From: Mycteria americana
Lineage: Eukaryota > Chordata > Aves > Ciconiiformes > Ciconiidae
DNA length: 64,000 bases
Direction of reading: 5' to 3'
NCBI RefSeq assembly: GCF_035582795.1
Contig: NC_134373.1
Span: 24,708,501-24,772,500 of the forward strand
Shown here: in pieces, positions 9,210 to 44,363 of the stretch
How positions within the stretch are numbered: the first letter of the stretch is position 1
Layout of the letters: every line of letters begins with the position of its first letter
Program-made: the position numbers and the translations under genes
The notes under the pieces: generated by a model
What the model was told of the DNA's origin: nothing
Databases searched by the model: none
The model's input: the letters and a program-made list of their open reading frames with translations, nothing else

Positions 9210-9303
9210 CTGTACCTGGAGATCTACCAATACATTGCTTCTGCAATCCACGTTCTTGAGAAGGTGCACGTCGGCACCACAGAAGCCAGAACCATCTCGT
9301 AAC
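9210..9303 (-). other. Exon-like segment inside GCA intron 2
   Basis: On the minus strand a 94-bp piece is bounded by CACAG and CAG|GTGAGT and keeps several CpGs in an otherwise AT-rich intron. Its length is not a multiple of three, so including it would shift the GCA frame. I do not recognise its translation in any frame. It may be a non-coding or cryptic exon, or chance. Confidence 0.2.
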
Positions 9304-16423: not shown

Positions 16424-16878
16424 ATGGCAGAGGAATCCCGAGACGAGCGCTTCCTCCACGTGATCTCCTGCTCCGGGCCGCGGCTGAAGCAGTTCATCCG
16501 GGTGCAGCCGCTGCTGGAGCGGCTTCCCTCGCTGAGCGCGGGGGAGAGGCAGAAGGAAGGTGCGGGCGGCCGCCCTGCAGCGGGGCGAGGAGGAGGGGGC
16601 GGAGGAGCTGCTGCGGGCCGCGGAGCGGGGGCCCCGCGGGTGCGCCTGGTTCCGCGAGTTCTTGCCGGCGCTGGAGCACGGCGGCTGCAGCCTGGCCGCC
16701 TGCTACGTGAACCCCAGCCCCAGTCAGCTGCCCTCGCCGGCTGAGGAGGGCGACCGCGACCTCTGCGTGCACTTGGTGCAGCTGCTCCACAGCACACTGG
16801 TGGGATAGAATGCAGACCATGCAGGTGGCCGAGAAGTGCCTGCAGATGGGCATCTCCCAGGACGAGGACCTGGACTGG
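16424..16878 (+). pseudogene. IFIH1: IFIH1 exon 1 (CARD1), two frameshifts
   Basis: ATG at 16,424 opens MAEESRDERFLHVISC..., close to the avian MDA5 start. A tandem duplication of AAGG (16,553-16,556 and 16,557-16,560) shifts the frame. The second part (VRAAALQRGEEEGAEELL...) continues in another frame until an extra G near 16,803 shifts it again and exposes TAG at 16,806. The third frame resumes with the DRMQTMQVAEKCL segment and ends at a good donor, GTAAGT at 16,879. The last codon is TGG where birds probably have CGG. All three pieces are recognisable, so the lesions are small and recent-looking. Confidence 0.92.
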
Positions 16879-17195
16879 GTAAGTGGCCCGCCTGCCAGGC
16901 CAGGCGCCAGGCAGTGCCACAGGCGCAGGCCACCCCCAGGAGCTGTGGGGCAGAGAGGAAGCCACAACTAGAAATGGCCTTGTAAATGCAAAAAATGAAA
17001 GGGGAGTACCCAAAGTTGGGGGAGAAGAGAAATGGTGCTCCAAGTAAGCCAATGAAGATTGTTGGCAATGGGCCAGCAGGTGGGATGCCAGCTAAGAACC
17101 AGGGAAAGAAAAATGCCATGAACAGAGGGTTAGACTAAGCCAGTGTCTAAGTGGAAGGAATATGGCTGGCTTTACTGTACTTATCATTTTGCCAC

Positions 17196-17284
17196 AGACT
17201 CAGAAGATCATTAAGTGTCTTCTGGCCCCTGAACCATACCAGGAAGTAGTGATGGCCTGTAAAGTCCTAGAGAATACTTGAGTT
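17196..17284 (+). other. Open exon-like segment in IFIH1 intron 1
   Basis: After a TTTTGCCACAG acceptor-like sequence, about 28 codons stay open (TQKIIKCLLAPEPYQEVV...) and end in TGA. I do not recognise the product. It may be a retroposed fragment or chance. Confidence 0.15.
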
Positions 17285-18711
17285 AAAATAAAGCAAGACC
17301 TTCCCTCCCCTTTTTTGTCATAAGTTCACTAAGGAGTATCATACTAGACAGTAAAGCCAAACAGAAATACTAGTTTGACAAGAAAGAGCAAGTGTTAACC
17401 TTTGATGAAAACATTTGCCAGTGTTTACTCCATTTGGCCAAGAATTACTTGCCTGGACTAGTGTGAAACTTATTCGGAACCCAAAAAAATGGATACCTTG
17501 AAACAGCATTAGAAGAAGAAATTAAAATAATACTTGCCATAGCAATAAGGGGAAAACTGGCAAACTAAGGGTGGAATTACATCATATTTGCACTCTGAGC
17601 TTTTGCATCCACTTTTTAGGTAGTTTAATGCTCCATCTCAGTTAAATGACTGTCATATACATAATTTTGTCTGGCGACTGTCAGGTAGCAGTAAGGGCCA
17701 GCTGCACCCTAAGGGATGGGGAGCCGAGCGTGGTAACAACAGCGGGCAGAGGCAGGGGCCTTTTAGGAGGTTACCAGCTCCATTCCCTGGTAATGGGTCC
17801 ACATGTTTCCCGGGGTCATCTTTTTGCTGCTGGTATTTCCATTAAGCCCTTCATTACCTTTCACAATCCATACAGTTTCAACTCCAACAATGCCTAGGCT
17901 TTCTTAATGTGCTTGTATATTCCTTTTTGTTTACCTCTCCCGACTCCCACTTCCCATGCACTTCCTTTTAGTGTTCAATCTCAGTCAGGGGTTCCCACTG
18001 CTATGCCTGCCTATTTTCTTGCATATCAGGATGGGTGATTCTCGAGCCTTGAGAAAATTGCCCTTGAGGACTAAACACCTGTCTTGGGCTGCTTTACTTT
18101 TGGGGTGGTCATTTTGTTCCTCATGTGATCACATGTCAAGTTCTGCTCATGACGGCCTTGGGACACTTTTCCATAGCTTCTTTGAGGGCAATAGCCACTT
18201 TCTAGAGGCTTAGCTATTGTATCTTTAAGTGGGAATTCAGATGATGAAGCCAGAGTTTAAGAAGGGAAATGTTCCATTTCATGTATGAGGTCATGTTACA
18301 GATTAAGTCTGAGCTTTGATAAGCTGTATGACATCACTTCTCCTTAATCAAGGTTGGCGATTCCCAAAACCAGTGTGAACACCAATTATTATTCCACAAT
18401 AATAATAATAATTATATAGTGGTTATTATTATAACCATTGTCCAATACCACCAGTCTCTCCAACTAAATTTCAGGTCTCGTAAGTTTTAGATATCCTACC
18501 CAAAACCATATGTGATAAACAAGAGGTTGGACAAAACTGCAGTAAGTCTCTTCTGATGAGTGGCAGGCCCACCCACTTTATATCTTTATTTTTATGTATA
18601 TTTTAATGATGACAGGGAAATGCTTTTGTACCTATACTATTCTTACTAACTTCCCTCAACCATTTCCAAAGTCTGTCACAGGATTGGTTTTATTTTTTTT
18701 ATTTTCACCGT

Positions 18712-18863
18712 ATTCACACTGTTACTGACAATCATGGGAACAGAGGTGGTACAAGGGAGCTATTGAGCAGAATAGTGCAGAAGACTGGTTCTCTCCTTTT
18801 TTGATGCTCTGCGTGAAACCCAACATGGAGGCCTTGCAGATGATTTAAGTGGAAATACAGGAG
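18712..18863 (+). pseudogene. IFIH1: IFIH1 exon 2 (CARD2), acceptor lost, two frameshifts
   Basis: Opens with IHTVTDNHGNRGGTRELLSRIVQK, the start of CARD2 in birds. The two bases before it (18,710-18,711) are GT instead of AG, and no AG lies nearby to replace it. After the QK codons about 4 bp are missing (18,784) before the TGG of Trp-Phe-Ser-Pro-Phe, and one more base is missing near 18,807 before Leu-Arg-Glu-Thr-Gln-His. The 152 bp become 157 once the 5 bp are allowed for, which restores the expected phase 0 to phase 1. The donor after 18,863 is GTAATC. Confidence 0.85.
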
Positions 18864-21125
18864 GTAATCATCTTATTTCACTAGTACTGATGTGTGGGGT
18901 TTTAATATCTCCTTTTTTGTACTGCTAGTTAGGAAACAATGCAGGGTTCTCACCATATTGATTTCGCTGTGACATGAGACTAAGGCTTTCACTTGTCCGG
19001 GGATTTAAAAATCAAGTTATTTAACAGCTTATTCAATAGATTCTTAAGCACTAAAAATCCTTATTAAGAAATATCAGAAATACAATAATGTGTATGTAGT
19101 TGTAATTAAACTGAATCCTTACCTTTTATAACCCATTGCTTTTCAATGTGATGTTTTGATAATCATTCATTAAAAATATTCTGAAGATTAATTTGAACAA
19201 ACAAAACAAACCTTTTCTGGATTTCTCCTTCAACACAAGGATTAGTGTTTCCTTTATAGAATGGTTTACAAATATATGCGGCATTTTAAAATATACTGCA
19301 GTATGTCTCCTTGGGGATAAGACATTTTTAAGTCTCAAGACATTGTATAAAATCTAGTATAAATAATAGAATAAACTAGTAAAGAGATTATTTACAGAAA
19401 TGAAACTAAAAGAGCTATAGGTTTTTGGCTACTACTTTTTATTCCTGTACAATGATTATGACATTGTAAAATTATCCCAGTGCTCCGCTGGATTCTAAAA
19501 TATGAAAAAGGAAGCAGCCCTCAAATACTCTATCCCTCATTTTTTACTGGGCTCTACATATGTTTTATAAGATTTTTGAGACTATAAAGTTTTTTAACAG
19601 ATTTCCCATTTAGCAGCTTCAGGCTTCGTGCTTGAGGAGCTCACCAGAACTATGTCGCTGTACTTTTAGTTGCTGCATATGGGACAATGCATTAAGACTG
19701 GGATAAGAGGGGCGTGAAGGTGTCTCTTCCAGCTGAGGACACGAATCAACCTGTCTTCTGCCAGACACAGATACGCAGCTGCCATATTTGAGTGTGCAGA
19801 TCAAAGGTGGTTGAGTGTTCCAGTCTGCAGGACAAGACCAACCAAGTTAGACCCTCAGAAGATAGTTCTGAGTGAAAGTCAGATGCTGGGAATAGCTCAG
19901 CAGCCACTGTGGTCCTAATTTTCATTTTGTGTTGCAGCTTTGTCAGGCTTAAATTCTTGTCTTCGTTACTTTGCTATCAGTAAGGTAAACAAAGTAATAA
20001 ATATTTAGCAAATACGCAAATTATTAAAATTCTTTTCATATTTTTATTTTCAGTTCTTTTCAAACTTTGCATTTCTGAATTTTCAGTATAGTGCAGACCA
20101 TATAGGGTAAAAAAAGTTTAATTCAGTTGTTTGATGCAATACTGAATGAATGCATTTCTTCCACAGTTTCTCAGTAATCTCGAGCAATGTCGGCGCTAAA
20201 AGAAACTGTACAGATAAATACGTAAAGCATAAATTGTGTTGCTCTTACCAGAGGATAAGAAATTTTCTATGTAGACAGTCCTGTAAGTGTGTAGATATGT
20301 AAAGTTATGATTACTGTAGCATCCACTGATACGAGGTCATAGACAGGAAACACTAAGAACAGGTTCTCTGGGTACCTTGGAAGGAGAAGAGTGATGCTAC
20401 ATTTTGTCACTCCAGGTTGATCCCCAGTGATTGGTTACAGTAAAATACATTGTTATTAGCAGACACCTACACATAGAAATTGAGAACTTTATAAAAAATA
20501 AATCTTGAAATAAATTAAATCTATTAATTTCTTTAAATTTAATTTCTAATTGAAGAGTAATTGAGTTCCAAATCTGGAAAACCCTGTAATGCAGTCTTAC
20601 ACAGTTTTTGTAAAAAATGTTTGAAGTTCACTGAACAGCATTTTTTGCCTTTGGAGCATGCCTAGTTCTACATGAGTCTAAAAAGAATAAAAGAACAGAG
20701 AAGTCAGAGAAATTATTTCCGTATTTGAAATAAGACGAAGAAGTGGAAGGAGGGAAAACATTTTGTGAAAGCTCTCTCAGGTTTTCTGTTTTATGGGCAA
20801 GTTTTGAAGTCCTGCTGTAAGGTACATCCATTTATGAGCTTACAGGACCAATGGAATTGAGACGGTAGGAAACATGGTCTAGTCCACAAATTCAATTTTC
20901 AGATCCTTGTAGTGACTGTAAATATTTGAGATTTATGACCAACAACTTTCTTAATAAATATTTATAAAACCATCAAAATTCCAAACTATAATGTTTTTAA
21001 AGTCAAGACCATATGTTATGCTGTTATGTGCACGATGAATACAGGTTAGTTCTATGTTTTCTGTGCTCCACACTAAAAGAAATTAAATGTTTTATAGTGC
21101 TGTGGAATTTCTGTTTATTTTCTAG

Positions 21126-21302
21126 GAACAGAGAATAGACAAAATGGGATGAAGAACAATACAAATGAAGAAACAGAAGTTACAAGCCAACCAGGATATG
21201 CCGTAGTGAAGGATTTGAAACAGCAAGAAAATGTGAATGATAGTTTCAGCAGTGAGAACAGTGTATTGGAAACATCTATTGGAAAGAATTCTGTAGTTTC
21301 AG
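21126..21302 (+). pseudogene. IFIH1: IFIH1 exon 3 (linker), frame intact
   Basis: 177 bp (59 codons), phase 1 on both sides, CTAG acceptor and GTATGT donor. Encodes the acidic, Ser-rich linker between CARDs and helicase, ending NSVVS as in MDA5. No lesion seen. Confidence 0.85.
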
Positions 21303-24300
21303 GTATGTCCACTAACTGGTATTTTGTGCTGGTACCAGTTAAACTTTAGTAACTGCAAGTAACTTAGAGAACATTCTTGGTGCATTAGCTCCCATCTTGC
21401 TCAAAAATTCAGGAACATATGGTACTGTCGAGGTGAAGGGAATGAATGGAAAAAGTAAATCTTGATTTTTTTGGAAGCAGTAAATTCCATTTCTTCCTAT
21501 GAATTAACAGCAGTAGCAATTTTAAGGGTCAGATCTGCAAATTTCTTCAGTTCAAAGAGTTGCTCTAGGACAAGAGTATGTTGTCATACTTAAACTAATT
21601 AATCTGAAAGGTAAGAGCTGGTTCAGAAACCAATTTGCTAGCACAGTACAGACTGGCTTTGGAGGACACGGCCAAAAAATCTGTAGCACACTATGTGCAG
21701 CCTTCATGTAGACATTTTCTGTATCCTGGTTGTAGTGATGATGTTTTACCTACTATGGGCTGCTTGATTTTCTTATAATTGAGCAACATTAATGATCTTC
21801 CTTTCCTCTTAAATAGTACGTTTAACAACTTTGTATTATTATTTTTTAATTTACTGTGTGAAGAAATGGGTCGTTTTCAAACATATTTAATATTGTTAAT
21901 TAAAAATATTAATATTATTAAATGAATACTTTATTTCAGACCTATTCATGGTAGGTTTATACTATCCAATGAAAACATAAGGTTTACATTGACAACTCCT
22001 CCCAGTGTTGACAAAGTTTAAATCAAGAGGAATGTTTCTGTACCACTATAACTGCAGCTGTATTAAGTGCTTCTTTCTAGAAGTCTGGTAATTCTATATT
22101 GGAAAACATTTTTGGTTTTGGTAAGTCCTTTAGTGCTGTCCAACAAGTAATTTTTCTGTTTATTTTAAGGATTTGTATTTACAGAGCATCAAACAACCAT
22201 GTCACATCACATGCTCAGAAGTACATTTTTTAGTACAAATTTTTAGAAATTATTGTGGCCTGTTGTTCATATGGATCTACTTTTAAAAATGTGCCTTGGA
22301 AGTTGATTATGAGCAACAGCAATTACCAGCAACAATTCCCAGGCATAGCTGGGAACCAATGATTCAAACATATGCTGTATGATTAAGGAACCATTCATAC
22401 ATGTTACACATTCAGACGGAGCTCAAACAATAGTTACAACTGAGATAAATCCTGCCTGAAATTATTTTAGTGGGCTTACTCAGCCAAAGGAGTAAGACAG
22501 CTAAGGCTGCTCTTTTTTTAATCAAACATGAATAAATAAAAAAAAAAATTGGCTCTGAAAACTGCAGGCTTTCAGTGTGCAACAGCAGTAGCCTGTTTCT
22601 CATTTAGCATGATATTAACAGCATATCACAATGTTTTGTAGCAAGTAGTGAATTATTAACGACAGCAAAAATATCAACTTGGTTTTCCTGGATTAGAACA
22701 TAATTTGGCAGTATAAAGAAGAGGTGCCAAATATTTAATGATGATTCAGAATAGATCAGACTGAGTTATCCTCACTCTTAGGATCCTTTCAGGGCAAGGC
22801 TAAGGCTCCTAATTGTAGCCTCACTGAGGGTAGGTTTTCATTGCTGTTAGCCTGATCTTTTCCCTGACTCTTGTCAGGTTCAGGGTTACAGATAACTAGA
22901 TCTATTAGCTATCACCTAGCCTGCCACAAGCTAATTCTAGCCTGAAAACGATGGTCTCCTTAGCACTGAACTGTACTGAAATTAATAGACAGTGGCTATT
23001 AGCAGTTTGTGCAGTTGAGCAGATCTATTCAGTGAAGCAGTGCTAAGGGTGTACACACTACGTGAATTCCGGCAGTTTGGTTCAGATTGACTTGAGTCTG
23101 GTGTGGACTGTATGCCTGCAAGTGGCTGGAACACATCTCGTTTGGTTTCAGCTGACAGGAGTTCATTTCTTGTGATCCAAAGCAGCTCTGTGATATGAAC
23201 CAAAGTAGTATAAGTGGGAACAACTGACAGATTCACTGTAAACGTGCACTTCTGAGTTGAACTAAACCAGCAGTGTAGATGCAACGTAGCAAGGGCTGCC
23301 AGGAGACAGTGCTGCATGAAGATGGCTGTAGAGGAACTGGCTCACATTCAGCCATCTTGAAGTGCAGTAAGCTTTGATCTCTATGCACTTCTACACACAG
23401 ACTTAACTGCACTCAAGTCGTCTTCAATTTCCATCCTTTCTCATGATCTCATAAGACTGTATTTTTAGACCGGGCAGCTGAAAATACAACTGGAGCCCAG
23501 ATTCTGCTTCCAAGTAGGCTGGGAACCCACCTAATTTGCAATTTGATGCTGTCAAGTGTTGTCAGTTTTGCAGTACACTCCTACCATTCCTTCATATATT
23601 GAGAAGGACAAATTTCAAGGAGAAAGAAGCTTTTTCAAGTCACTTGAAATTACTGCAATTTGCATTGTATCTAAAGCCTCCTCTGACCTTTTTATTGGAG
23701 TAGCTGAGACAGAGGGAGTTAGAAGGTATGAGGGCAGTAGGGTCATTTAGCCTAAGAGAAAGATAGAAGGAAATTGTGCATGCAAAAACACAGATAAGAA
23801 ACTGCACACACAAAAAACCAACACAAAAGCAGTAAGTTTGCAAGGTCAGAAGTGAAACATTTGGATTAAGGCTACAGTTACCTGTATAAACAACAATTTA
23901 ATTAAGTAGCAGCTCTGTTTTTTAAGGCCTGTTTCATAAAAAATTGATTGGAACAAATAATTACACTGTAATTAACTGGAGATTTCAATAATGTCTCACA
24001 AAATGTCCCTTAATGCTTCAGATTAGAAAAACTGTCCATTAATTTGGAAGTAGGACCAATTTTAATAGCCCATTTATGTTTTGGTCCTTCATTTATATTT
24101 TTCAATGTTTGAACTTATTCTGTGACATAATGTAGCACAGGAAAGAAAGACTTTTTAAATTAATATTGCATAGATCCTTTTTTTTTTTCACTGCATTCCG
24201 TTGTCTTTATACTTACTTATTAGTCAGTGCAAAGTGACTGAAAATCTTTCTGTGGAATATGCTGTGTTACAATGTGCAAGTAGCACTGTAAGGGAAGACT

Positions 24301-26514
24301 AGTGAAAGTGGTGAGAACAGCTGTTAGAGTATCAACTCTTTTATCTTCATTGTTTTGGAAAGGCTTACTGGTTTTTTTTTAATTTTATTTAAAAATAATT
24401 CAAGAAAGTTGCCACAGTTGAAAAAGGAGAACATCATTCTACTCACCTTTCATTTGGAAAATGAGTATTTTGCATTTCACTTCACCACAGACATTTTCTG
24501 TTGAGAGATTATTTTGTAATGCATGCTGCACATCGTAATTCAGATAATTACGTACAAAACACTTTGTGAATGCATATTCTCTGCTGCATATCTGTCTTTC
24601 AGTAGGTCATTTTAGATGGGAGACCACATGAAATAGATACATATAATTTTAATTTTGTCCTCTCTTTCCTATCCACATGGATTCCTAGAAAGTGGAAACA
24701 AGAGATAGCAGTGTCATCTTCATAGCTGGAATTCCCACTAATGCTACTTAATAGTTTGTCACAGGTCTGAACATGGATTATAACTGGTGAGGTTTTCTTC
24801 TTTTTTCAGGACAATGCTGTCTTCTAATGCGATATTAAATGCATGCTATAATATAATAATAGGGAAACTTTATATAAATCAGGCTTCTGCTGTGAATATG
24901 TTCTTTAAGTGCCTTTCTGTTGATTGCATTTATTTCTAGGAGACTAGGCTTTTAATTTAGGTGCTTAAAGTCTTTAATGCCCTTGCCCATCATAACACTT
25001 CCTACAGATGGTGGTGATTCATGGTTGGATCAGATTCCAAGGTCTGTGTGGAGTAAATTATGAAAACTGTAGGACAGCAAGGCAGATGTTTGCATCACTT
25101 TTCATGGTTATGTTAGAAAAACTGAAAATAAAGACTTAAACAAATACCTGACTCCTAGTGGTAGCTAAGGTAGCTTCATTTCAGTTGTCTGTATTATATT
25201 TGTTCTGTGAAATAGCAGTTTTGTTTCTGTTATTCATTCACCTTTCAAGGAGAGCAAAACTTGCATAAAGGAAAGTCAAAGCTTCATATTTTTACTGAAC
25301 GCAGACTAGGTTTAATTTCAACCTCACTTACCAAGATTTTGTAGTGTATATTTCAGGAGTACCATTCTAAGACACTAACTATAACTTCCGTTCAGTTCTA
25401 AACTGTCATTCACAGCATCTGGTTTGCTTTATGAATTATTTGTTGGGGACAATAAGTTGGGGACAATATGGAGATGGACCATAATGGGATATTCACTGGA
25501 AAAAACTATGAAAAACTTGATAGGACACAAGTTCACTAGCTAATTAAGCAAAACATAGGTCAATGATATTATTCTGACTGATTTCTTATGCACATTATGA
25601 GCTCAGTTGCAGAGTGCTGCAGGTAAGCTGACAGTGCAGGGTGAGGCTGTTTGAAGCAGGTTTTTCCAGAAGAACTGTGTATCTCTTCAGATATTAAAAG
25701 GACTGAGTTTTGGAAAATCTAGCTATATAAATTACGCTTGTGACTTAAAAAAAGTAAGTGTAATACATTGATTGCCCAGCAGAGGGAGAGCTTAACATTA
25801 GAATATCTACAGTAAACTTGCCAGATTTCTGTGGCAGTGTCCAAGTCTATTGGGTGTAACGGGATTGTTGGTCTCTACTTTTACTTGCAAACAGTTTGGA
25901 AGATTTAATAATTCCTCTCTGCTTCTATTTACCTGGGAACTAGGTTTACTCTTTTCATGTTACATGAAGAAACCCTTTTTTAAAAAAAAAAAATCACACT
26001 TCTGGTTTTGATTTTCTTCTACTACAGGTATAACTCACATGGCTTACAGGCAGTATAAGAGAATGTCTTCAGTTTGCCAGCAGCGCTGTGTATCCAGTAG
26101 ACCAAAATGTTTTTCTTTCTTTTTTTTTGGCTCTTCACCGTTCTGAAAAGATACAGTAAAATAGGACTAGAGGGGGTCATGCAGGCAGTCATGTCTGGAC
26201 CCTTGCTTTCAAGCAAACAGAACATAGATGCCTGACAACAATAAATCATGACCCACATTGCCTTACCTCTGCTATGTTTTGGATTTTTATCTTCCACTCC
26301 ATATTTTCTTCCATAAGAAAATGAATTATATTGTTCACAGTTTTTTCTTTAGCTAAGAAAAAGTTTAATAATAGAAATTATGCCTCATCCATCCCTGCCA
26401 GACATTTGTCTAGCCTATTTTAACAACTTAAGGAGAGAGCGAACAATATGCTTTTGCTATTTATATTTGTATAGCAAATATACTATACAACATTTGTTTG
26501 TGTTTTTCATTTAG

Positions 26515-26596
26515 AGTCAGATGTCTCCATAGGAGATGAAAAGTGTCAGTAACGTGAATGAAAACCTGGGACAGAGCTGCACAACCAGTGATTCCG
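26515..26596 (+). pseudogene. IFIH1: IFIH1 exon 4 (linker), 1-bp insertion
   Basis: Begins ESDVSIGDE, like human ESDTSLAEG. One extra A in the run at 26,539-26,542 shifts the frame and gives TAA at 26,550. The other frame then continues SVSNVNENLGQSCTTSDS to the donor GTATGT. The exon is 82 bp, but phase 1 on both sides requires a multiple of three, which confirms the +1. Confidence 0.85.
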
Positions 26597-26860
26597 GTAT
26601 GTTTCCCTCCTGTTATTTATAATTGCAAAATAAGCTCTGGAGGGTAAGCACTCTGTGAATGCACTAGAACAAAAACCAATGGAAGGCTTTCACTGTGAAC
26701 TCTAGTTCATAGTATTTAGATGCCAGACTTCCTCTTATTTGGTTGGAAAACAGATGCTGTTTTTATGGGTCTGGACTTAAGTCCCACCCCCAAAAGAGCT
26801 GATTTACTGAGATCGTCTGAATAGGTCTCTAGACATTGTCATCACACAAAATGGTCAGTG

Positions 26861-26937
26861 ATGCAGAATGATAGAATCACATAGGCTGGAAGGGACTTCC
26901 AGAAGTCATCCAGTGCAGTTACCTGTACAGATACTCA
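26861..26937 (-). mobile_element. Short CR1 LINE 3' end
   Basis: AGAATCACATAGGCTGGAAG followed by GGACTTC and CATCCAGTGCA is the antisense of the CR1 3' terminus, in IFIH1 intron 4. Confidence 0.75.
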
Positions 26938-28204: not shown

Positions 28205-28240
28205 GGACTTTGTGATATTTATGGACTTTGTGATATTTAT
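28205..28240 (+). repeat. 18-bp tandem duplication
   Basis: GGACTTTGTGATATTTAT occurs twice head to tail in IFIH1 intron 4. Confidence 0.95.
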
Positions 28241-30050: not shown

Positions 30051-30271
30051 ATAAAGATGAAGTGGAGAGCAGAGCTTCACCTGAGCCAGATCTGATCCTG
30101 AGAGATTACTGGATGGAAGTTGCAAAGCCAGCACTGAATGGGGAGAATGTTATAATATGTCTCCCTACAGGCAGTGGTAAAACCAGAGTGGCTGTTTACA
30201 TTACAAAAGATCACTTGGATAAGAAGAAAAGAGCATCAGAGCCTGGAAAAGTTATGGTAGTTGTTAATAAG
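30051..30271 (+). pseudogene. IFIH1: IFIH1 exon 5 (helicase Q motif and motif I)
   Basis: 221 bp, phase 1 to 0, splice sites CCTTAG and GTATGT, open frame. The segment [20 protein letters not shown] precedes an intact Walker A Gly-Ser-Gly-Lys-Thr at 30,170-30,184. The Q-motif glutamine (Arg-x-Tyr-Gln in RIG-I-like helicases) is Trp, TGG at 30,110-30,112, which should weaken adenine recognition. Confidence 0.92.
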
Positions 30272-31127: not shown

Positions 31128-31337
31128 GTACCGTTGGTAGAACAGCTTTTACGAAAGGAGTTTAAGCTGTTCCTGAAGCGTTGGTATCAGGTTATTGGTT
31201 TAAGTGGTGATTCTGAGCTGAAAATCTCATTTCCTGAAGTTGTCAGAAGAAATGATGTCATCATCAGTACAGCACAGATCCTTAAGAATTCACTGTTAAA
31301 TGCAGCTGAAGAAGATGAAGAAGGTGTCCATTATCAG
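31128..31337 (+). pseudogene. IFIH1: IFIH1 exon 6 (motifs Ia-Ib), 1-bp deletion, GC donor
   Basis: Encodes [12 protein letters not shown]...[14 protein letters not shown]...STAQIL with an intact frame until the last codons. The expected Leu-Ser-Asp ending (TTATCAG) is one base out of frame (about 31,330), giving His-Tyr-Gln. Length 210 bp means phase 0 exit, while exon 7 needs phase 1. The donor is GCAAGT, not GTAAGT. Confidence 0.88.
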
Positions 31338-34300
31338 GCAAGTTTTTAATTCTGAAATTTTTACAGAAGGGCTAAAAGTATGTCTCTATTCTGGAAAATA
31401 GCAGAGTAAAAATGTGTCACATTCAGTAGTTAAAGTTTTTTCAGTTGACTGGTTTTATAAATGCAAGCTGAGAGTCAAAACCAGATCTTAGTTAATGAGC
31501 ACGCAATTTTTTCAAGCCAAATTAGACTCTTACAGTTCATTTGTACTAAATATTTGTTATGCTTCCTATTTTATCTAGCTCAAGCACAACTTTGTGCAAA
31601 TGCAGCCATACTGGTTCCACTTTCCAGGCTTGGTAGAGCGTTGAGTTATATCACACAGAAGCAATAAACAGAATGAGAAAAAAATTATAAAAACTCAAAT
31701 CTAGTCAGTAGTTTGAGAAACACAATGGAATACAAGATAATAGGTGGTCTGTTATAAAAGTTGTATTCTTTAAGCTCTTATCATTTTGTTAACATACAGA
31801 GATATCGTTACTTATAACTGTATTTCTCTGAGGTTGGCAGATATAATGGTCTCCTACAACAGATGAAGGAAGTTGAAGAAAACAAAAAACACAAGATGAG
31901 ATGAGGTAATACTGTTTACCCAGAATACTAAAGTGGCAGATACCTATGGGAGATCAGAAAGGAAATGGTATTATCTGCCAGTGACGTACAAATAATGGAA
32001 CAGCCCATGACTTCAGCTCCAGGATTTGGGTTGCAGTGACCCTCCTCTGTGAGATGTTGACTTCTCCCTCTATCTGCATGCAGTCAACTCTTTTTTAGAT
32101 GGGGCAGGATGTAGCTGAGGGGAGAGCTATAATATTCAGAATAATGGATCTGAGATAAAAGAAGTACTTGTCTGGGTGTTACAGAGACAGCAGAGAAACC
32201 TGAGGGGTCAGTCTGTGTCTATCAGTGCCTAGTGCTGACTGGAGTACTGCTTGACTGGAGTACTGGAGTACTGCTTGAAACTAACTCCTGCAGAACCACT
32301 TGGGTACCTCAGAACTGCCTCCCCTCCTTCAGAATGCCTTTTTTTAACCTAGGCAGAGTACCAGAGATTTTCTTATGCTTACTTCCTTTCCACTGCACCT
32401 GAATTAATAAACCGTCCCAAATCTGAATCATTTGGGAATGCCGTATAGAGGCACCTGAACATTTCTACCTGAATTGCTGACCTGATTAGAATTGGGCTGA
32501 GTCCCAACCAGCTTGTGTAATGAATGTTTTTTTGAATGGGTTTCACACCTTGCAAAGTTTCCTTCATAAGGAACTATATTTTTTCCAGAACTGAGGTGGA
32601 CCTGCAAACAGGGCCGTGTTTCCTTGCTATTACACCTGTGCTAGTAAGTTCAGCTGGACCAAAGCCAAGCAAGCCTGAACAGAGCCAGCTCCATTTTGAT
32701 GGCTATGACTTGGTTAGCTCACAGCCTGTATAAATCATCTTAATTAGTTATAAGTTTTTTATTCCTAATTTCTGTTCATACTTTTTTCATCTGTTTCCAC
32801 AGAGGTCTGCATTACATGTAACATGGAATTCCAGCCTCAGTGAAATGGAGGGGACTCTCTTAATTGCATTTTACCAAATGTTTACCCTCTTTACCAAGGG
32901 CTGAAGTCACTGTGTGGACTTTCTAAAAGCTGTGTATCACTTCCTTAGTAGAAGCATATCTCTTCGGGTGGGTTAGGTTCGATAGGAATATGCATTACAG
33001 AGTTGATGGTCAAAATCAAAGGGAGTAATTTCATGTTGGCAAAATAACTGAGAAACTGCCAGCACTGCTTCTGAAATCTTGCAATATGTAGAAATCTTAG
33101 AAATAAATAGAAATTTAGGTTTGAAACCACATCGCTCCAGTCAAAACTGCTTCCTGAACCACTTGTGTGAAGACAATCAGATTTCCCCAGTGACATGGAG
33201 CACTAGTTTGCTTTCCAAGCAGTAGTCTTTGGTTTAGCTTTTAAATAAAATTTCCCTTGTTCAGTCTCCACCTTTGTTTAGGTTCTTCAAAGATGAAGTT
33301 ACATGATATTTCTCCAGCAGAAAGGCCAACTGAGAATGTTCTAGCTCTCTGTTAGTTTCCAGCTTCCGCTGCCAGGTGTTGCAAACTCATTTGTAGTGAT
33401 ACAACAATTTGAGCACACTAATGTGTAAACAAGACCATGGAAATTATCCGGATTATAAAAAAAAGAAAGAAGGAAAAGAGTTTAACCCTGACCACTTCAG
33501 TGATCTGCTCTACAGTCATTTCCACAAACATTTGTCAAATTGTAGGAAACAATGTTGAATTAGAGAGTTATTGGCCAGCTAGGGGAAGAGTGAGAGCTCC
33601 ATAAACCAGTTTTTATGTTAGAGAAACAGAGAAATGTTCATGAGTCTTTCAAATCAGAACCTTGAAATATGTGTCACTGGCTGCATGTGCAGATAGATTA
33701 AAGAGATGTTTTCTGTGTTTGTGAGAAATTTAAAGCAAACAAAAAATAATCTTAATTTTCCTTATCGTATAGTACTTTACTTGTTGCATGTAAATATGAT
33801 CTGACTAAGAAGCACATAATACCTGTCTGAATCTTCATCAGTTTCCTCCACTACAAAAGAGAGATGATTGGTAGTGCTCCCACCATGTTTGTTCTTCCCA
33901 ATAATACATCCATAAAGTAATGTAAATCTTCTAATTGGGCAGGAATAGGGAGGAAATCTCTGTGTTGCTATAAAATGGAAGCATATTTTGATCAGGACAG
34001 GCCTTTCTAGAATGTCTGAAAGGCTTCTAACGTGTTATGTATCTTCTCATAAACAAACAGTATGCAGTTTCTCAGATACAGTTATGGATATAAAAGATAG
34101 GATTGATATCAATATCATACGTTCTTACCACTGGTTATTAAAAATATCTCTCTTAAATTCTTTATACCATCAGATTGGTTTTGCGAAAACGGAAAAGCTT
34201 TTTACGTTACATGAAATGTAAAAATACTTGACACATCAGGACTGCAGCAAAGATTCCAAAATTTCCATTATTTTCCAAAGATTCCAAAGATTCCATTAAA

Positions 34301-34462
34301 TATATACAGCTTCCATCCACGCCTTCCTCCAGCACTACGAATTTCTTAATACATTAGGGCTCAAACAAACTGACGGGTTCTCTTCAACAGTGTCCTTACC
34401 TGTAACAAGATTTAGTCACACAAATTCTACATTTGAAAGAAAATTAATCATTTTAGGGGTCT

Positions 34463-34477
34463 CCCCCCCCCCCCCCC
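34463..34477 (+). repeat. C15 homopolymer at the IFIH1 exon 7 acceptor
   Basis: Fifteen C residues run straight into the exon and occupy the pyrimidine tract; the acceptor dinucleotide that follows is CG. Confidence 0.95.
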
Positions 34478-34478
34478 G

Positions 34479-34696
34479 ATTTTTCACTCATCATTATTGA
34501 TGAGCATCATCACATTCAAAATCAAGGTGTCTACAGCAATATAATGCAACGTTGCTTAAAAGAAAAGATGAAGAACAGGAAGCTGGCAAAAGAAAACAAA
34601 CCACTGATCCCACAGCTTCAGATTCTGGGACTTACAACTTCACCTGGTATAGGAGGTGCAACATCCTGCTCAAAAGCTGAAAAACATATTCTAAAA
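34479..34696 (+). pseudogene. IFIH1: IFIH1 exon 7 (DECH box, motif III), acceptor lost
   Basis: Phase 1 entry reads [20 protein letters not shown] where MDA5 has [12 protein letters not shown]. The Cys of the DECH box is His (34,505-34,507), and motif III reads Gly-Leu-Thr-Thr-Ser-Pro. The frame is open for 218 bp to a GTAAAT donor. The acceptor AG is replaced by CG (34,477-34,478) at the end of the C15 run; the only nearby AG is at 34,455. Confidence 0.9.
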
Positions 34697-36249
34697 GTAA
34701 ATAGCCCTCACACTTGCAAACCATCAAAGGGATATTGTCTTGTTCAAGTAAAATTTTTAAAGTCAGTGTTAGGCTCCAAATATATAATCTGATTTTTTTT
34801 TTTTTCATGTGTACATGGGAGTTCAGCTCACAGCCATTCAGCAAATTGACCCACTACAAATTAATGGAAATCCATGTACAAATAAAGGTTACTTTACAGG
34901 GAAGTAAGGTTACTGAAAAGGAAAGTAAAGATTGCCTCACTTGAAAAAATTTCTCAAGATCAGAGGCAAGAAATCCACAAAATAGTGAGGTTTTATAGTT
35001 AATAAAAATCTTATTTTTCCATTGATGGATTAGAATTTACTTGTATTCCTAAATCCTAGAGAGATCACAGGATTTTATATCTGTATTTCTGGAGTGACTA
35101 AGCTGGGCTTTTGTGTGGATCCAAGAAAGTGAAAAACAAAGCTGAATACTTAAACAAGCAGAAACCACTTGTGAGATAGAGGTAGCATACAAATGTTTTT
35201 CTTTACAGCAGTTAGAGTTACTCATTGAGAGGGGAGTATTGTGTAGTTGCATAAACACCTTACTGGAGATAATTGGTTAAATTCTATACTTAAAGAAACC
35301 CTATTGTACTTGAAATTCAATGGATTTACGTTAGTAATACAAAAGTAGAATTTAGCCCAGTACTCCAGTGAAAACTCCTGACTAGCAAATTGCATAAGAA
35401 GAGAATGTGACATTGAATAGGCGAGGCCTGCAAGAAGCTTTTATGCTGTATTGAAGTAGATAGAATCGCAAGGTATTTTGAGACAAAAACTTTCTGGCAA
35501 TGGAAAAAGCAGAGAATTCCTGTTCATCAGCTCTGAAATCTTAATGATAGGATGCTGGTTTTTGTATCTAAAGAAATGTAATCCAAATAGGCAAGCTCAA
35601 ATAGATAACTACTGCTGAAGACATTAAAAAGGTTGCCTGCCAGACTTCCTTTCCTGTTTTCTCTGCTCATAAAAATTTTAAGGTTTCCCCTTATTACTTT
35701 AGACTTAGTGACAGAAGTGTACATATTTTCTTCTCAGAAGAGATCAAAAGCAGAGAAGTCCAGTTCAGTTGTGCAGTTAGCCCAGAAATTTTCTCTCTCT
35801 CTTCCTATTCCAAGAAAGATAATTTCGAATTATTTTCTACTCTCATGACCAGCTCTTACTTTTATAATTACTCCCTAACATTTATTTCCTTTTTTCTATT
35901 TCACCATTGTTTTTGTTTATTTGTTTTGTGCTCTAAAATCTACTCTTCCAAAGTATTGATGGTATATTTTCCTTTTCAAAATACCCGTTTTGCACCCTGA
36001 TCTGCAAGCTTTTTCCTGTGTGCAAGGATCACTTCTGGCCTAAAAAGTAACTTGTTCAGTTTATCTCAAATGCTTTTCAAAGACTTGGCCTTTCTTATGC
36101 TGATAGTGTCTGTATCAAATTTTTGTAGGAAGAAACAAAAAGTTATATAAAACCCAATAGCTAAATGAGAAGCTCTGTTGTATTAATTCAGTTTTCATGT
36201 GGAATAACTCATTAAATGTTACAAGAAATAACATTTTGTTTTCTCCCAG

Positions 36250-36366
36250 ATCTGTGCAAATCTTGATGTGTGTAGAATCATGACTGTTAAAGAGCATGCC
36301 TCCCAACTGAAGAATCAGGTGAAGGAACCATATAAGAAGACTGTGATTGCAGATGACAAAAGAAGG
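36250..36366 (+). pseudogene. IFIH1: IFIH1 exon 8, donor lost
   Basis: 117 bp, 39 open codons (ICANLDVCRIMTVKEHASQL..., ending ADDKRR) after a CTCCCAG acceptor. The donor reads ATATGT instead of GTATGT (36,367). It does not resemble a U12 AT-AC donor. Confidence 0.92.
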
Positions 36367-36486
36367 ATATGTTTTTTCAAACAAATCAGTGTTAAAGTTA
36401 TATTGCCCTTTAAAAGTGTGTTGTATGGTATCAACCACTTCTGGCTAATGCTCTTTTTCTATAGATTTATTGTGATCCATATTGAT

Positions 36487-36507
36487 TGTGGTCCATATAG
36501 GACCACA
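36487..36507. repeat. Short perfect inverted repeat
   Basis: TGTGGTCC and GGACCACA flank ATATA, giving an 8-bp stem. A second, imperfect copy (ATCCATATAGGACTGTGAT) follows at once. It lies 120 bp after the broken exon 8 donor. Confidence 0.8.
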
Positions 36508-36901
36508 GATCCATATAGGACTGTGATCCAGTGCTAATTTGAATATGCGTGAATTTATCTGTGGCTTTCCTCTGTATGGAAAAGGATCAGTAAAGTCGAA
36601 TAGAACTAAATTTTTACTTACGTGAGTTATATTTTTGAGGTATCTGGTCAAAAGACCTGAACCATCGTTGAAATGTTTGTATTGGAGTGACATTATATTC
36701 ACTAAAAAAATATGTTATTTCACAGTATAATTTTTTTAATATTCTGAACTATTTACTTCCATAACTCTAAATGCACTTAGCAACTTTACTTGTTTTTTAA
36801 TTTAAGGTTTAACATTTTAAAAAAATTACTCATTGTGGTACTAGCCAATGTTTTTGTTGCCAGAAGATACTTGTTTACTTTGGTAATCAATTTATTTCTA
36901 G

Positions 36902-37025
36902 GATCCATTTAGAGAGAGAATTACTGAGATCATGACAGACATTCAAAACTATTGCCATCTCCATCCAAAATCTGAGTTTGGACCTCAGCCATATGAACAG
37001 TGGGTGGTTAGAGAAGAGAGAAGAG
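36902..37025 (+). pseudogene. IFIH1: IFIH1 exon 9, frame intact
   Basis: Encodes DPFRERITEIMTDIQNYC...PQPYEQW, part of the pincer and helicase insertion domain. CTAG acceptor, GTAACT donor, phase 0 to 1, no lesion. Confidence 0.92.
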
Positions 37026-37123
37026 GTAACTGCATAGCAAAAATATCCCATCTTTGGATTTATTTGGGTCATTCTATACACAGGCATGTTTTTGTATTTT
37101 TTGTTCACTTACTGCAAAAGCAG

Positions 37124-37350
37124 AAAAACGCAAGGAACGTGTCTGTGCAGAACACTTGAAGAAATACAATTATGCTCTCCAGATAAATGACACCATCTGA
37201 ATGGTGGATGAGTACAATCACCTACATAACTTTTATAAGGAGGAGAAAAGTAAGAAGACAGTAAGGAGTGGTGATGATGATGAACCAGCAGTATCAAAAA
37301 ATATGAGTAAGACTGTAGTCAGAAAGCCACTGCCTAAGTGGTGTAGTAGT
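37124..37350 (+). pseudogene. IFIH1: IFIH1 exon 10, nonsense mutation
   Basis: [16 protein letters not shown]...LQINDTI is followed by TGA (37,198-37,200) where MDA5 has Arg (INDTIRM), a CGA-to-TGA change. The frame then continues MVDEYNHLHNFYKEEKSKK into an acidic stretch and KNMSKTVVRKPL. The 3' end is uncertain: the usual LDETD segment is not readable and no strong donor ends the exon (GTAAGA at 37,305 is a cryptic candidate). Confidence 0.88.
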
Positions 37351-38151
37351 TTGTGATACATTGACTACCATTGCATTGGATGAGGTGCAGTGCAATAATC
37401 TGCACAGGGTGATGACATCAGCGTGACTGTAATATCTTAACACACAAGGTCTCCACCTTAAAGTGTTATTATTGTGTTTGCATGATCATCTGACAAGGAT
37501 GTAGGCTTTTAAATATTAGAAGTTTTTAAAAAAATTAAGACACATGAGGAATCCTCCCTGGTCATGGTCAATAGTGCCTGTCGAAGAGAGTCATTCATTT
37601 AACATTTCACTGAGTGTATTGAAATGTCTTTAAAAGCTGCAATACCGATAGCAATGCGCCCATCCTGGTTTCTATTACATTGCACATTTCTAGTGAGGAT
37701 TCCTACTTTAATGAGTGTCCCAAGTACAATCTATGCCTAAATTTATAGAAACATTATCAGCTCTGAGGGCTGTCCATATTAATGTTTCTCCTTGTAAGAC
37801 TTTTTCTGTTATTTTAAAACTTTTTTGCAAGTATTATAAGCTGTAATTTAGCTCTTTAATACAGTGCACTTAAGTCTGTACCACTTCTAGTGTCTAGACA
37901 GAGTTTTTTTCTTTTGCTTATTCTTACCATGAAATATAGGCAAAGTGTATGTTAAAAAGTTAATGGTGATTTATTTTGATTGATTAGTGTGTTTTTAATG
38001 AATGTAAACTCACTTGAAAAATAATTGGTATGCCACAGCTCTTCAAACTGGATGTGAAGTAGCCATGCTGGGAGAATTATATAGAAAGCTGCCCTTTGCT
38101 TTTTTTTTTTTTTAGCTAGAGCTGCTATTTTACATGGTTACTTTTTCTTAA

Positions 38152-38430
38152 TTTGCATCTGCTATTTTTAAAGCAAAAAAGAAACAGCTGAAAGACTTGG
38201 CTGGAAAGCCAGAATATGAAAATGAGAAGCTAATACAGTTGTGAAGCACTTTAATGCAGGAGTTCACAAAGAGTGGGGAACCTAAAGGAATTATTTTCAC
38301 AAAGACTCGGCTAAGTGCCTTTGCTCTATTCCAGTGGATTAAGGATAACCCAAAATTTGAAGAAGTGGGAATTAAGGCACGTTATCTTATCGGTGCTGGA
38401 CATAACAGTGAAATTAAACCCATGACTCAA
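38152..38430 (+). pseudogene. IFIH1: IFIH1 exon 11 (motif IV), nonsense mutation
   Basis: Reads LKDLAGKPEYENEKLIQL, then TGA at 38,242-38,244 where MDA5 has Arg (KLRNTI). It continues with intact motif IV (GIIFTKTR) and [18 protein letters not shown]. The start is approximate: an upstream T-tract acceptor (38,114) leads into an in-frame TAA at 38,149. The donor GTTCAG at 38,431 is poor. Confidence 0.88.
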
Positions 38431-39909
38431 GTTCAGAACTATGCACTACAGCATTAAAATCTTGTACATGATTTGAGAAAACGGCTTGTTTTAGTACTAG
38501 AACAACGGACTGAAGTTTGGAGCCCAGAGTTCTGGTTTCATACCTGCCAGCAACTTACCTTCATAAGCTGCAGGGTAGGTGAATAACAATGTCAGAATAA
38601 TTTTATTGCCACAAGGAGCAAGCTTTTTTGGTTTTGGATTCTATGGCAATAGGAGTAATAGGCAGCCATTTCCTAGAGGACCATATAGTCAAAAGGGACA
38701 CAAGTCATAGTGAGGCATAGGAAGAAAAAGTGAAGAAAATGGCAATAGCAAAAATGCGATAGTTAAGTAAGTTTATAATTATTGGGACAATGGTAATTCA
38801 AATTACATTTTAATCGCTGAATTGAAAAATAAAATTACAATGTTGATTATGCCTGTCATTTTCTAATATCATTGCTTAATCAACTTATACCAATTTATAT
38901 GCATGCTTCACACTGACACATAATCATTGAAAGAGAATTTGCCAAAATTCACAATGAAAATTTCACAATTGATCACTCAACAGTCCGTCTCGTACCATTG
39001 TGTTGACTTCATACACAACATCTCTCTGACGATTTATACCTCCAAATCAAACATTCTGAAAACAAAGTACTTCAGTATCCTAAAACGTCTCTTCTGTTCT
39101 GCTTTTTAATCCCCATAAAATTGCCACTTCAGCATTTAAGGAAAAATGGTGTGGTTTACTGCTGGGCAGAGTCCATTTCCTTCAGCTGCTCTCAGTTTCA
39201 AAAAAAAGTTAGGAATTCTTCTCTCAAAAAGTTGCTTGTTTTCTGTGAAAATTTGGTATTTAATCTGTGCACCACATTGCACAAATGAAACAATAGCCTC
39301 TACGTTTTGAAACTGAATATAGCAAATAGGAAGTTTCTGTCCCTCTGTTCAAGCATGTTTGAAAATATCCAGCTAATTCAGAAGTCCATGTTTTGGATGC
39401 TTTAATTTTTAAGTGTATCATTGCTGTGCTTTTTGGTGCTCTCCAGATCACCAAAATTATGGTCCCCATGTATTGTGGGGAATTTTAAGTGCTTTGGAAC
39501 GTGACTTGGAAGTGCTGAAGTCTATACTTTAAGCTGAAATTACTGAAGTGGTAGAAATCCAGGATCTCTGAATAACTACTTAAAGAATTTGAAAATGATA
39601 GAACAACTATATTATCAAAACTCGTAGTGCCTGTGAAATGGGCTACAAAGTTTGAAGCTCAGTTACCTTAAAAAGATTGGCTTCTGCTCCGTTCTCCCTC
39701 AGAAAGGGTGCTGAAGACCTATTGTATTCAATAGGAACTCCTTGTTTGTGATCTTGAAAGAGGCTTAAATGCAGTTGTTGAAGTCACTTGATGTTTGGCA
39801 CTCCACTCTGAAATTATTGGACTATAATTCCTTAAACCTCTTAATTAGAAGAAACTGATGACAGAAGCTAATACTGAAAGTTAATATACTGATTTTTTTT
39901 CATTTACAG

Positions 39910-40059
39910 AATGAGCAAAGGGAAGTTATTGATAAATTCCGAGGTGGAAATATAAGTTTACTTATTGCTACTACTGTAGCTGAGGAAGCCCTAGACATCA
40001 AAGAGTGTAACATCATTATTCGCCATGGCCTCATCACCAGTGAAATTGCCGTGGTGCAG
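39910..40059 (+). pseudogene. IFIH1: IFIH1 exon 12 (motif V), donor lost
   Basis: 150 bp, 50 open codons: [14 protein letters not shown]...[18 protein letters not shown]. The invariant Gly of VAEEGLDIKE is Ala. The donor is CTATGA instead of GTATGA (40,060). Acceptor TTTACAG is good. Confidence 0.92.
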
Positions 40060-40749
40060 CTATGAGTTTACTGCGTACATAACTGATTTTTAAAAGTGCT
40101 TTTCTGTTTGGAATATGCAAATGGTGAATCATACACCTGGGGTTTGGAGATAATTTTGAAATACTTGAATGCTAAAAGAGAAAAGGCTCTTGCAACAAGG
40201 TTCATTTCCAGTTGCCATCCTCAGTTTGCATGCAATATAAAATTTGCCTCCATGTGTAATGATGTAACATCCATTTAAAGCTCTACACAAACAGTAAGCT
40301 CTTTTAATAGAGAAGGTATGAGAATATGATCAGCAGACTGGTTGATATAAAAGACATTTGTACCACCAACAGCTAAAAAGAGATAATTGCATATCAGAAT
40401 ACCAGCTTGTCCATGTTCTCACTTAATTTGTGAACACAAATATTTTTATATTTAATATTTAAATGCATGCTTATTTTTTGGTGACAAAATACAGTTTCTG
40501 CTTTGCAAAATGTTGTGCTAATCACAAATCTCCTAAGTACTATTTTCACAGGTATCTTTGATGATAATGCAGAAACAGTATGTCTTATTCACTGATTCTT
40601 TATCTGTCTCAGTTAAGTGGAAAAAAATGCTCTGTGGGGACGCTGCGTAAGGAACAGTACATGTCTTCCATTGGAAAACTAGGAAAAAATGTTGTGTGGT
40701 GTTGTAGGGAATATTGTGCCATTTATGTTGTATTCCTTGCAAATTGTAG

Positions 40750-40911
40750 GCTCGCGGTCAAGCTCGAGCTGATGAGAGCACCTATGCACTTGTGGCTTCA
40801 AGTGGCTCAGGAGCTGTTGCACGTGAACATGTTAATATTTTCCGTGAGAAAATGATGTATAAGGCCATTCAGCATGTCCAGAAGATGCCGCAGGAAGAGT
40901 ACTTAAATACG
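40750..40911 (+). pseudogene. IFIH1: IFIH1 exon 13 (motif VI), key Arg changed
   Basis: 162 bp, open, TTGTAG acceptor and GTATTT donor. Motif VI reads [11 protein letters not shown] where RIG-I-like helicases have ARGRARADE. The first Arg of the GRxR pair, needed for ATP hydrolysis, is Gln (CAA at 40,759-40,761, one CpG transition from CGA). Confidence 0.92.
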
Positions 40912-41245
40912 GTATTTACTGCAACTCTGCACTTTCCCTTTAAAGAAGACTGATTTATATTGTAAGAAATACTTTCTATTTGAAATCTACTTAGCGGAGG
41001 AAAACTTAAAATAATACTAGTTGCTACATATGGCCTTGAATCCTTCTGCCAATATTTGTTTTATAATCTATGTTTTCTGGGCCTTTAGAAAAATCTGCTT
41101 TTCTGTTGGTAAGGGGGAAAACACACAAGTTGGGAAAATTGACTAGAAGTCATGTTGTCGGTAAACTCAGTACAATAACTGAAAAAGAAAACTATTACTG
41201 TCATTCCACCAGAATGTTACAGTGCTCTTACTGACCTATTTCTAG

Positions 41246-41436
41246 ATTCAGAATTTCCAGTTGCAAAGTATAGTGGGAAAACTCATTAATGCAAAGAGAG
41301 ATCAGTGCAAGACGTACAAGAAATATCCTTCACTAATAACATTCCTATGCAAAAATTGCCACAAGCTGATATGTTTTGGAGAAGACATACAAGTTATTGA
41401 AAACATGCATCACGTCAGTGTGAAAAAAGATTTCCA
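41246..41436 (+). pseudogene. IFIH1: IFIH1 exon 14 (C-terminal domain, first Cys pair)
   Basis: 191 bp, phase 0 to 2, CTAG acceptor and GTAAAT donor, no stop. Contains the first zinc-binding pair, Leu-Cys-Lys-Asn-Cys, and the HHVSVKKDF segment. Confidence 0.9.
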
Positions 41437-42902
41437 GTAAATGTTTATGAACTACTTTATCTCTTTCAGGCAGAAACAGATTTTCTTTTCAGCAGAGCTG
41501 TGCAGGGCCTGTAACCCTCTAGGACCTGTGAGGAAAAAGATTATTCCAATATTGTCAAGTCCTAGGCTCTATGGAGTTTACAGTTAATGAGTTTGAAGGA
41601 AATATTTGTTCTTACCCCTGATTTCGAGGTGACCAGAATTTGAAACTTTGGAAAAAGACACAGGTCCTGTGGTAATACTAACTAGGTCACTTATTATATA
41701 ATATGGTATGTATTCCACAGTGTAACTGTAACCAAAGATGAATACCAGTTACCCACATACTTACACCAGTAACAGTGTTACTGTGTATTTAGACCAAACT
41801 TACACCAAAAAGGATAAGAGTTTGACTCAAACAACATATTCGCCATGAGCTGTGCATTGACAATTGTATATTTAGAGGATGTTCATACTGGTGACACACC
41901 CCTTTTAGTTCTCCCAGTGTTCTTGCTCCTTTTATCTCCATTGCAAGAGATGCCATCTAGTTTGGTAAACATTTATGTTAAACTGTGTTTAACTTTTCAG
42001 TGCCATGATGGCAGGAGGTGACTTTCTCTTCTCACTCATAATGGAAATTAAGAGACCAAGAAAATGTTTTAATTCAACTTCATTTGCATTTGCTTACTAC
42101 AGTAAATTTGTAATGGGTATCGTACATTACAGATCAGTCATGCTTTGCTAATTATACAGCAGACACCATCCAACCAAGTTACTGCCCTCCAAAGTTTTCG
42201 TTTCTTTGAGACATATCTCTGGTATAATTTGTAAAGACTTTTTGAAGAGCTAATGAGAAATTAGTACCCATATGTTGAAAAAATTAAAAATTAACTGCAG
42301 CCCTAAACATTAAACTGCTTTTACTCTGAAATTGTCTTGTCAGCATAATGTTATCAGTCAATTCAAACTACAGGGTAATAATTCTTATAACCCCTTAGCA
42401 CAGGCTAATAGTAACCCTCAAGATCAAGTGCTCCTTAAACTAAATAATGTAAGAATGTGCATATACTCTGCAGCTCTGGATAGTCAGAACCAAAAGATTC
42501 TGTTAATGGGTAAGGTTGGACTACAGGGAATAAAAAGAAAACCTCTAACTTTCAGGTATCATTTCTTTGACAGCTCCATGGCACCTGAAAAAAACCAAGC
42601 TAGATCTATCCCCTATTATAACGGAGAGCCTGCTGCTCCTACTTTAAGATGTGTGAGGGAGGATGCAGCTCCTGAAATGCTACGAAAGGAGGCATGGAGT
42701 ACAGTTGTATTTCACTGTTACTTAGGAGCATGAAAAATGACCTTGCATTTTCTCCAACTCCTGAATGTGCACAACAGTCAGATTTTGCAACCTTTTAGGT
42801 TTCATATCTGACTTCAGCAACTGTAGTCACTGTGTGTTTAAGGCTATATGTAGCATTGAATGACCAATGTGTTCTGATGCACGCTTTCTGACTGTTTTTC
42901 AG

Positions 42903-42996
42903 AAGTCTTTACCATACAAGAGAAAATAGAACACTGCAAGGTAAGCATGCTGATTACCAGACAAATGGAGAAATTCTGTGTAAACATTGTGGACAA
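42903..42996 (+). pseudogene. IFIH1: IFIH1 exon 15 (C-terminal domain, altered zinc site)
   Basis: With phase 2 entry it reads SLYHTRENRTLQGKHADYQT up to NGEILCKHCGQ. MDA5 has Cys-Lys-Cys-Gly here; an extra His codon (42,985-42,987) separates the second zinc-binding pair. Donor GTGTGG is weak. Confidence 0.85.
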
Positions 42997-43103
42997 GTGT
43001 GGAACAACTTATATTCATACAGACAACTACAACATAAAAGTATTTATTTCTGTCTAATGATCTTGTCTATTTTATCTGAAACGTAATTTCCTTATACTTG
43101 CAG

Positions 43104-43286
43104 GCTTGGGGAAATATGATGGTTCACCAAGGTCTTGACCTGCCTTGTCTAAAAATTAGAAATTTTGTGGTTGTGTTTGAAGACAACAAAACAACAAAGC
43201 AAATTCTTAAGAAATGGGGAGAACTGCTCATCAGGTTCCCTAGTTTTGATTATGCAGCTCATTGTCCTTCAAGTCATGAAGATTAA
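43104..43286 (+). pseudogene. IFIH1: IFIH1 exon 16 (last coding exon)
   Basis: CTTGCAG acceptor, then [20 protein letters not shown]... to [13 protein letters not shown] and TAA at 43,284. This is the normal MDA5 C-terminus, with no lesion in the frame. Confidence 0.92.
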
Positions 43287-44289: not shown

Positions 44290-44363
44290 TTTACTGGCAT
44301 GGACATGTAAACACTTCAGGAGCCCCTTTACTGGCATGGACATGTAAACACTTCAGCAGCCCC
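44290..44363 (+). repeat. Two tandem copies of a 37-bp unit
   Basis: Unit starts TTTACTGGCATGGACATG and ends GCCCC; copies 44,290-44,326 and 44,327-44,363 differ by one base (GGAGC / GCAGC). Confidence 0.95.

Follow-up and report, generated by a model that had tools for sequence, protein, structure and literature searches.

The wood stork IFIH1 gene is almost certainly a unitary pseudogene and part of the MDA5 loss published for storks

Does the wood stork still carry a working MDA5, a main sensor of long viral double-stranded RNA (dsRNA)? The question is raised by a stretch of 64,000 bases, called the window below (bases 24,708,501-24,772,500 of a contig in the 1.35-Gb, 279-contig assembly of Mycteria americana, a stork of the family Ciconiidae, order Ciconiiformes), in which IFIH1, the gene for MDA5, occupies positions 16424-43286 of the plus strand. 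An original prediction had called this gene a unitary pseudogene in which all 16 exons are in place but interrupted by at least six frameshifts, two in-frame stops and four lost splice dinucleotides, and had asked if such a loss is already published for some bird lineage. On the basis of its conserved place, its many lesions, its lost constraint and the finding of no second copy with a RIG-I_C domain, we hold it almost certain that wood stork IFIH1 is indeed a unitary pseudogene and forms part of the MDA5 loss published for storks.

The identity and place of the gene were defined in several ways. First, a tblastn search in which intact Calonectris borealis MDA5 (P0001) served as query placed all 16 exons on the plus strand and in order. 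Second, when translated pieces of the helicase and the C-terminal domain were compared with solved structures, chicken MDA5 was the best match at 1067.8 bits, against 458.9 bits for the top LGP2 and 255.3 bits for the top RIG-I. Third, the 120 proteins listed of 978 protein matches bear bird names and are annotated as IFIH1/MDA5 or as "RNA helicase". Judged by its sequence, the gene is an orthologue of MDA5 and not of RIG-I or LGP2. Its introns are kept and it lies in its original position, with FAP on one side and the remains of GCA (grancalcin) on the other, an arrangement that we take to be the usual vertebrate gene order.

The 16 exons were aligned in a frameshift-aware manner to P0001, with exon edges inferred from protein matches and splice signals, while the splice sites and a frameshift in exon 6 were read by eye. 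Exon 1 (16424-16878), encoding CARD1, contains a +4 frameshift at about 16550-16556 and a +1 frameshift at about 16800; the frame opened by its ATG comprises 106 amino acids up to a stop at 16742 (codon 107), and MDA5-like CARD1 sequence is confined to the first 44 residues. Exon 2 (18712-18863; CARD2), whose 5' edge is uncertain by 1-3 bases, has lost its acceptor AG (GT at 18710-18711, before ATT) and carries a -4 frameshift at about 18781, beside which the aligner reports one missing residue, and a -1 frameshift at about 18804. Exon 4 (26515-26596) harbors a +1 frameshift at about 26538. Exon 6 (31128-31337) has a -1 frameshift at about 31332, so near the very end of the exon that too few residues follow for the aligner to report it, and the donor GT at 31338-31339 is changed to GC, a tolerable donor that may work. 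Exon 7 (34479-34696) shows CG instead of the acceptor AG at 34477-34478, along with a change of motif II from DECH to DEHH and A486T in motif III, and exon 8 (36250-36366) has AT in place of the donor GT at 36367-36368. Exon 10 (37112-37307) is preceded by TA at the acceptor (37110-37111), is interrupted by a TGA stop at 37198-37200 and may have a further -1 frameshift near 37300, where the 3' edge is uncertain. A donor loss was also considered for exon 10 and dropped, as a usable-looking donor follows only a few bases downstream. Exon 11 (38150-38430) contains a TGA stop at 38242-38244, and its acceptor and some 10 bases of its 5' end have probably been deleted near 38150; it is very probable that the acceptors of exons 10 and 11 are both lost. 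In exon 12 (39910-40059), finally, the donor GT at 40060-40061 reads CT and motif V carries G774A.

No lesion was found in the other exons, namely exon 3 (21126-21302), exon 5 (30051-30271; Hel1, in which the GSGKT of motif I is retained), exon 9 (36902-37025), exon 13 (40750-40911; R801Q in motif VI), exons 14 (41246-41436) and 15 (42903-42996), which encode the C-terminal domain, and exon 16 (43104-43286), which is open to its natural TAA. All of these exons are open, and wherever their edges can be checked they are AG and GT, with splice sites present for exons 3, 9, 13, 14 and 15.

Over the 16 exons the aligner scored five frameshifts (16550, 16800, 18781, 18804 and 26538) and two TGA codons (37198 and 38242). 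Including the exon 6 frameshift seen by eye, IFIH1 has six frameshifts, two in-frame TGA codons and four clearly destroyed splice sites (the acceptors of exons 2 and 7 and the donors of exons 8 and 12), to which the two very probable acceptor losses can be added. In all, the gene carries 12 clear lesions and up to 16. Nine of the 16 exons are affected, and no lesion-free run of exons encodes both CARDs or the helicase together with the C-terminal domain. The exon, frameshift, stop and splice-site counts of the original prediction were thereby all recovered.

Errors of assembly or sequencing could mimic such a pattern, and by eye four of the six frameshifts (the second of exon 1, the second of exon 2 and those of exons 4 and 6) do lie in or beside short mononucleotide runs. 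Several controls render this explanation exceedingly improbable. First, the stops, most of the splice changes and the 30 replaced invariant residues described below are substitutions. Second, RIG-I of this genome, aligned to cormorant RIG-I as 16 exon pieces in the same way as IFIH1, revealed neither frameshifts nor stops, and eight FAP exons within the window are open with normal splice edges by eye, such that both genes are free of lesions in the same assembly. Third, MDA5 is also broken in three other storks (PMC8619217).

As evidence independent of insertions and deletions, we determined if the protein encoded at the locus has changed at positions that are otherwise fixed. Of the 120 listed proteins, 91 intact bird MDA5s of 985-1020 residues served as reference set (29 were dropped, and a few species occur twice). 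Stork MDA5 differs at 30 of the 333 columns that are invariant in these 91 proteins (9.0%), including C442H in motif II, A486T in motif III and G774A in motif V, while R801Q in motif VI falls outside the 30 since one intact record deviates there and R is kept in the other 90 of the 91. When each of the 91 proteins was compared with the other 90, the median was 1 and the maximum 6 of about 349 columns. This control is biased towards the loss reading, since the set includes near kin of most birds but not of the stork. In a stricter control, proteins closer than 88.0% (the identity of stork MDA5 to its own nearest match) were excluded, which left 59 of the 91 usable with at least 40 partners remaining, and here the median rose to 4 and the maximum to 10 of 400 (2.5%). 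Similarly, in a protein tree the terminal branch of stork MDA5 is 0.110 long and ranks second of 92 (median 0.039), behind the tinamou Nothoprocta. By contrast, the stork RIG-I branch (0.026; rank 65 of 85, median 0.051) is among the slower ones in a tree of 85 of the 120 listed RIG-I proteins (900-940 residues). The MDA5 tree places the stork pseudogene with Calonectris at moderate support (0.823). Taken at the level of protein sequence, these comparisons indicate that purifying selection on stork MDA5 is lost.

A broken gene at the conserved place would matter little if an intact second IFIH1, located perhaps on the W chromosome or within an assembly gap, had kept the function. Gaps may exist in the assembly, but a search of the whole genome for the RIG-I_C domain, in which all six candidates were scored, yielded five matches at three places and no second MDA5: each place holds one RIG-I-like receptor (RLR) gene, namely LGP2 (contig C22), RIG-I (contig C32) and the IFIH1 locus. 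Krchlikova et al. 2021 (PMC8619217) moreover saw nothing to suggest that MDA5 has been duplicated in birds, and we regard a functional second copy as very unlikely.

The other two receptors look intact. The best protein match to the assembled RIG-I frames is P0121, RIG-I isoform X3 of Mycteria americana itself (929 amino acids), and by tblastn this protein aligns exon by exon to contig C32 except for about residues 141-189 and 322-406, two segments that lay outside the 16 aligned pieces and are open as far as seen, with about 8 residues of the second unseen. RIG-I thus appears to be retained, and the remark in the original prediction on the chicken, in which RIG-I is lacking and MDA5 is the main sensor, does not transfer to the wood stork, which presents the mirror case. 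Within a RIG-I intron (contig C32, about 63,531,400-63,534,900) there are open frames resembling reverse transcriptase, presumably a CR1-like retroelement. LGP2, at contig C22:700001-720000, likewise looks intact and retains its helicase motifs despite the loss of MDA5, with which it usually acts; it is open across 623 hand-assembled residues that score 1109.6 bits to chicken LGP2, with residues of about 590-620 and the extreme C-terminus lying outside this coverage.

Several points nonetheless weigh against a complete loss of MDA5. The lesions are known from the assembly alone and the exon edges from protein matches and splice signals only, and the RIG-I_C search is blind to any copy that does not have this domain. 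In addition, exons 13-16 are without a lesion, an outcome with a chance of about 0.02-0.06 if 12-16 lesions are spread evenly and this is the last fifth, and in these four exons taken alone the stork has 5 of 69 invariant residues changed, which equals the worst control (5). A short product of exons 13-16, comprising the end of the helicase and the C-terminal RNA-binding domain, might accordingly still be made and be useful, as the open frames and intact splice sites of these exons and the low probability of their escape would have it. Changes at invariant sites are, on the other hand, about equally common in exons 13-16 and in exons 1-12 (5/69 versus 25/264; Fisher p 0.81), and on the basis of these similar rates there is no sign of that end being kept. 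Moreover, R801Q strikes motif VI in exon 13 and such a product is without known start, so that we give a useful short product hardly any credence and retain the interpretation of the whole gene as a unitary pseudogene.

The question of whether MDA5 loss has been published for some bird lineage can be answered in the affirmative, for storks as well as for Gruiformes. According to Krchlikova et al. 2021 (PMC8619217), MDA5 is disrupted in Ciconia boyciana, C. ciconia and C. episcopus by about 10 inactivating mutations each, a load similar to the 12 clear and up to 16 lesions in Mycteria. The Ciconia pseudogene resembles that of the wood stork in being the same gene in the same order and family, in the retention of RIG-I and in neutral evolution (PMC8619217), the broken bird MDA5 genes showing a dN/dS of 1 and RIG-I no compensating selection. 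It differs in belonging to a separate genus, as Mycteria stands outside Ciconia. The nine species listed in that paper do not include Mycteria, and we found no paper naming both Mycteria and MDA5, supplements with full species lists being beyond this search; in their 2022 follow-up the authors surveyed 148 species and saw no further loss of MDA5 (PMC9861763). A third, so far unpublished bird lineage with the loss was considered, as the 120 listed MDA5 matches include no stork, crane or rail, and was rejected once the RIG-I match pointed to the wood stork. Six Gruiformes have lost the same sensor independently, with 20-30 inactivating mutations, none of them shared with storks (PMC8619217). Pangolins have lost IFIH1 too, but as a mammalian and independent event (PMC7225364), and in the chicken and other birds one RLR is also lost while another stays, except that there RIG-I goes and MDA5 stays (PMC9861763). 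The stork loss itself was already known; new here are its extension to another genus of the family and a separate test, at the protein level, that constraint has been lost.

How old is the loss, and did it happen once or separately in Mycteria and Ciconia? A crude age can be derived from the replaced residues on the assumption that invariant residues are free to change only after loss. With neutral rates of 2.2-1.1 x 10^-9 per site per year, the 30 of 333 changed columns translate into about 19-38 million years as point estimate and 13-54 million years with sampling error. By this crude clock, the MDA5 loss would be an old one, dating back some 19-38 million years. For comparison, the published bounds on the stork loss are 64.5 and 17.5 million years ago (PMC8619217), C. 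boyciana and C. maguari are reported to have split 17.9 million years ago (PMC11494145), and a TimeTree figure quoted in PMC11771223 puts the separation of Ciconia from sister taxa at 8.78 million years, the latter two dates disagreeing with each other. Mycteria is placed outside Ciconia, among the early stork branches (PMC10138051).

Our age fits a single loss before Mycteria and Ciconia parted, without showing it. A loss in Mycteria independent of that in Ciconia would be an alternative, which draws on the fact that there is no stork-named MDA5 for a comparison of lesions with Ciconia among the 120 listed of 978 matches, nor among the 10 matches of a second search, made for stork MDA5 fragments (three are named, none as a stork, and the three inspected of the seven unnamed ones, P0241, P0242 and P0247, are unlike the stork gene). 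Yet the crude age mostly predates the 17.9 and 8.78 million years published for splits within Ciconia or at its base, and a single loss is simpler than two within one family, which is why we deem separate losses possible but unlikely. We lean, with modest confidence, towards a single loss of MDA5 in the common ancestor of the living storks, in which case the family would have relied on RIG-I alone for tens of millions of years while keeping LGP2.

As to the neighbors of IFIH1, the eight exons of FAP inside the window (49980-63397, plus strand) are those used as control above, with open frames and AG/GT edges by eye. On the other side, only exons 2-4 of GCA could be located (8160-10378, minus strand), through weak similarity to human GCA, and they look degraded: by eye, the frame shifts where exon 2 begins and a stop interrupts exon 4 shortly after its start. 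Later GCA exons were not found in window bases 1-8160, so that GCA may likewise be defective, or the missing exons may lie left of the window; we found no pertinent paper on grancalcin gene loss in birds. A GC-rich island at 12750-13900, in which the GC fraction reaches 0.73, upstream of IFIH1 on the GCA side, is perhaps a surviving GCA promoter, and about 1 kb past the end of IFIH1 a 37-base unit occurs twice with a 97% match (44290-44363). An Rfam scan of the window returned no matches.

What would the loss mean for the wood stork and its family? Translation of IFIH1 from its ATG leaves the frame after 44 residues of CARD1 and stops at codon 107. From established RLR biology, no MDA5 filament would be expected to form, no signal from the MDA5 CARDs would reach MAVS, and cytosolic RLR sensing would rest on RIG-I, with LGP2 kept alongside. 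The best-studied role of LGP2 is that of a helper of MDA5, and its retention without MDA5 is noteworthy for this reason. A second stork genus with a broken MDA5 may also push the loss back in time. A bird family with RIG-I and LGP2 but without MDA5 would be the mirror image of the chicken and a natural knockout for the roles of LGP2 and ADAR1 in the absence of MDA5; if a single ancestral loss proves true, storks would provide a test of how LGP2 functions without MDA5, and of the need for editing of self-RNA by ADAR1 once MDA5 is gone.

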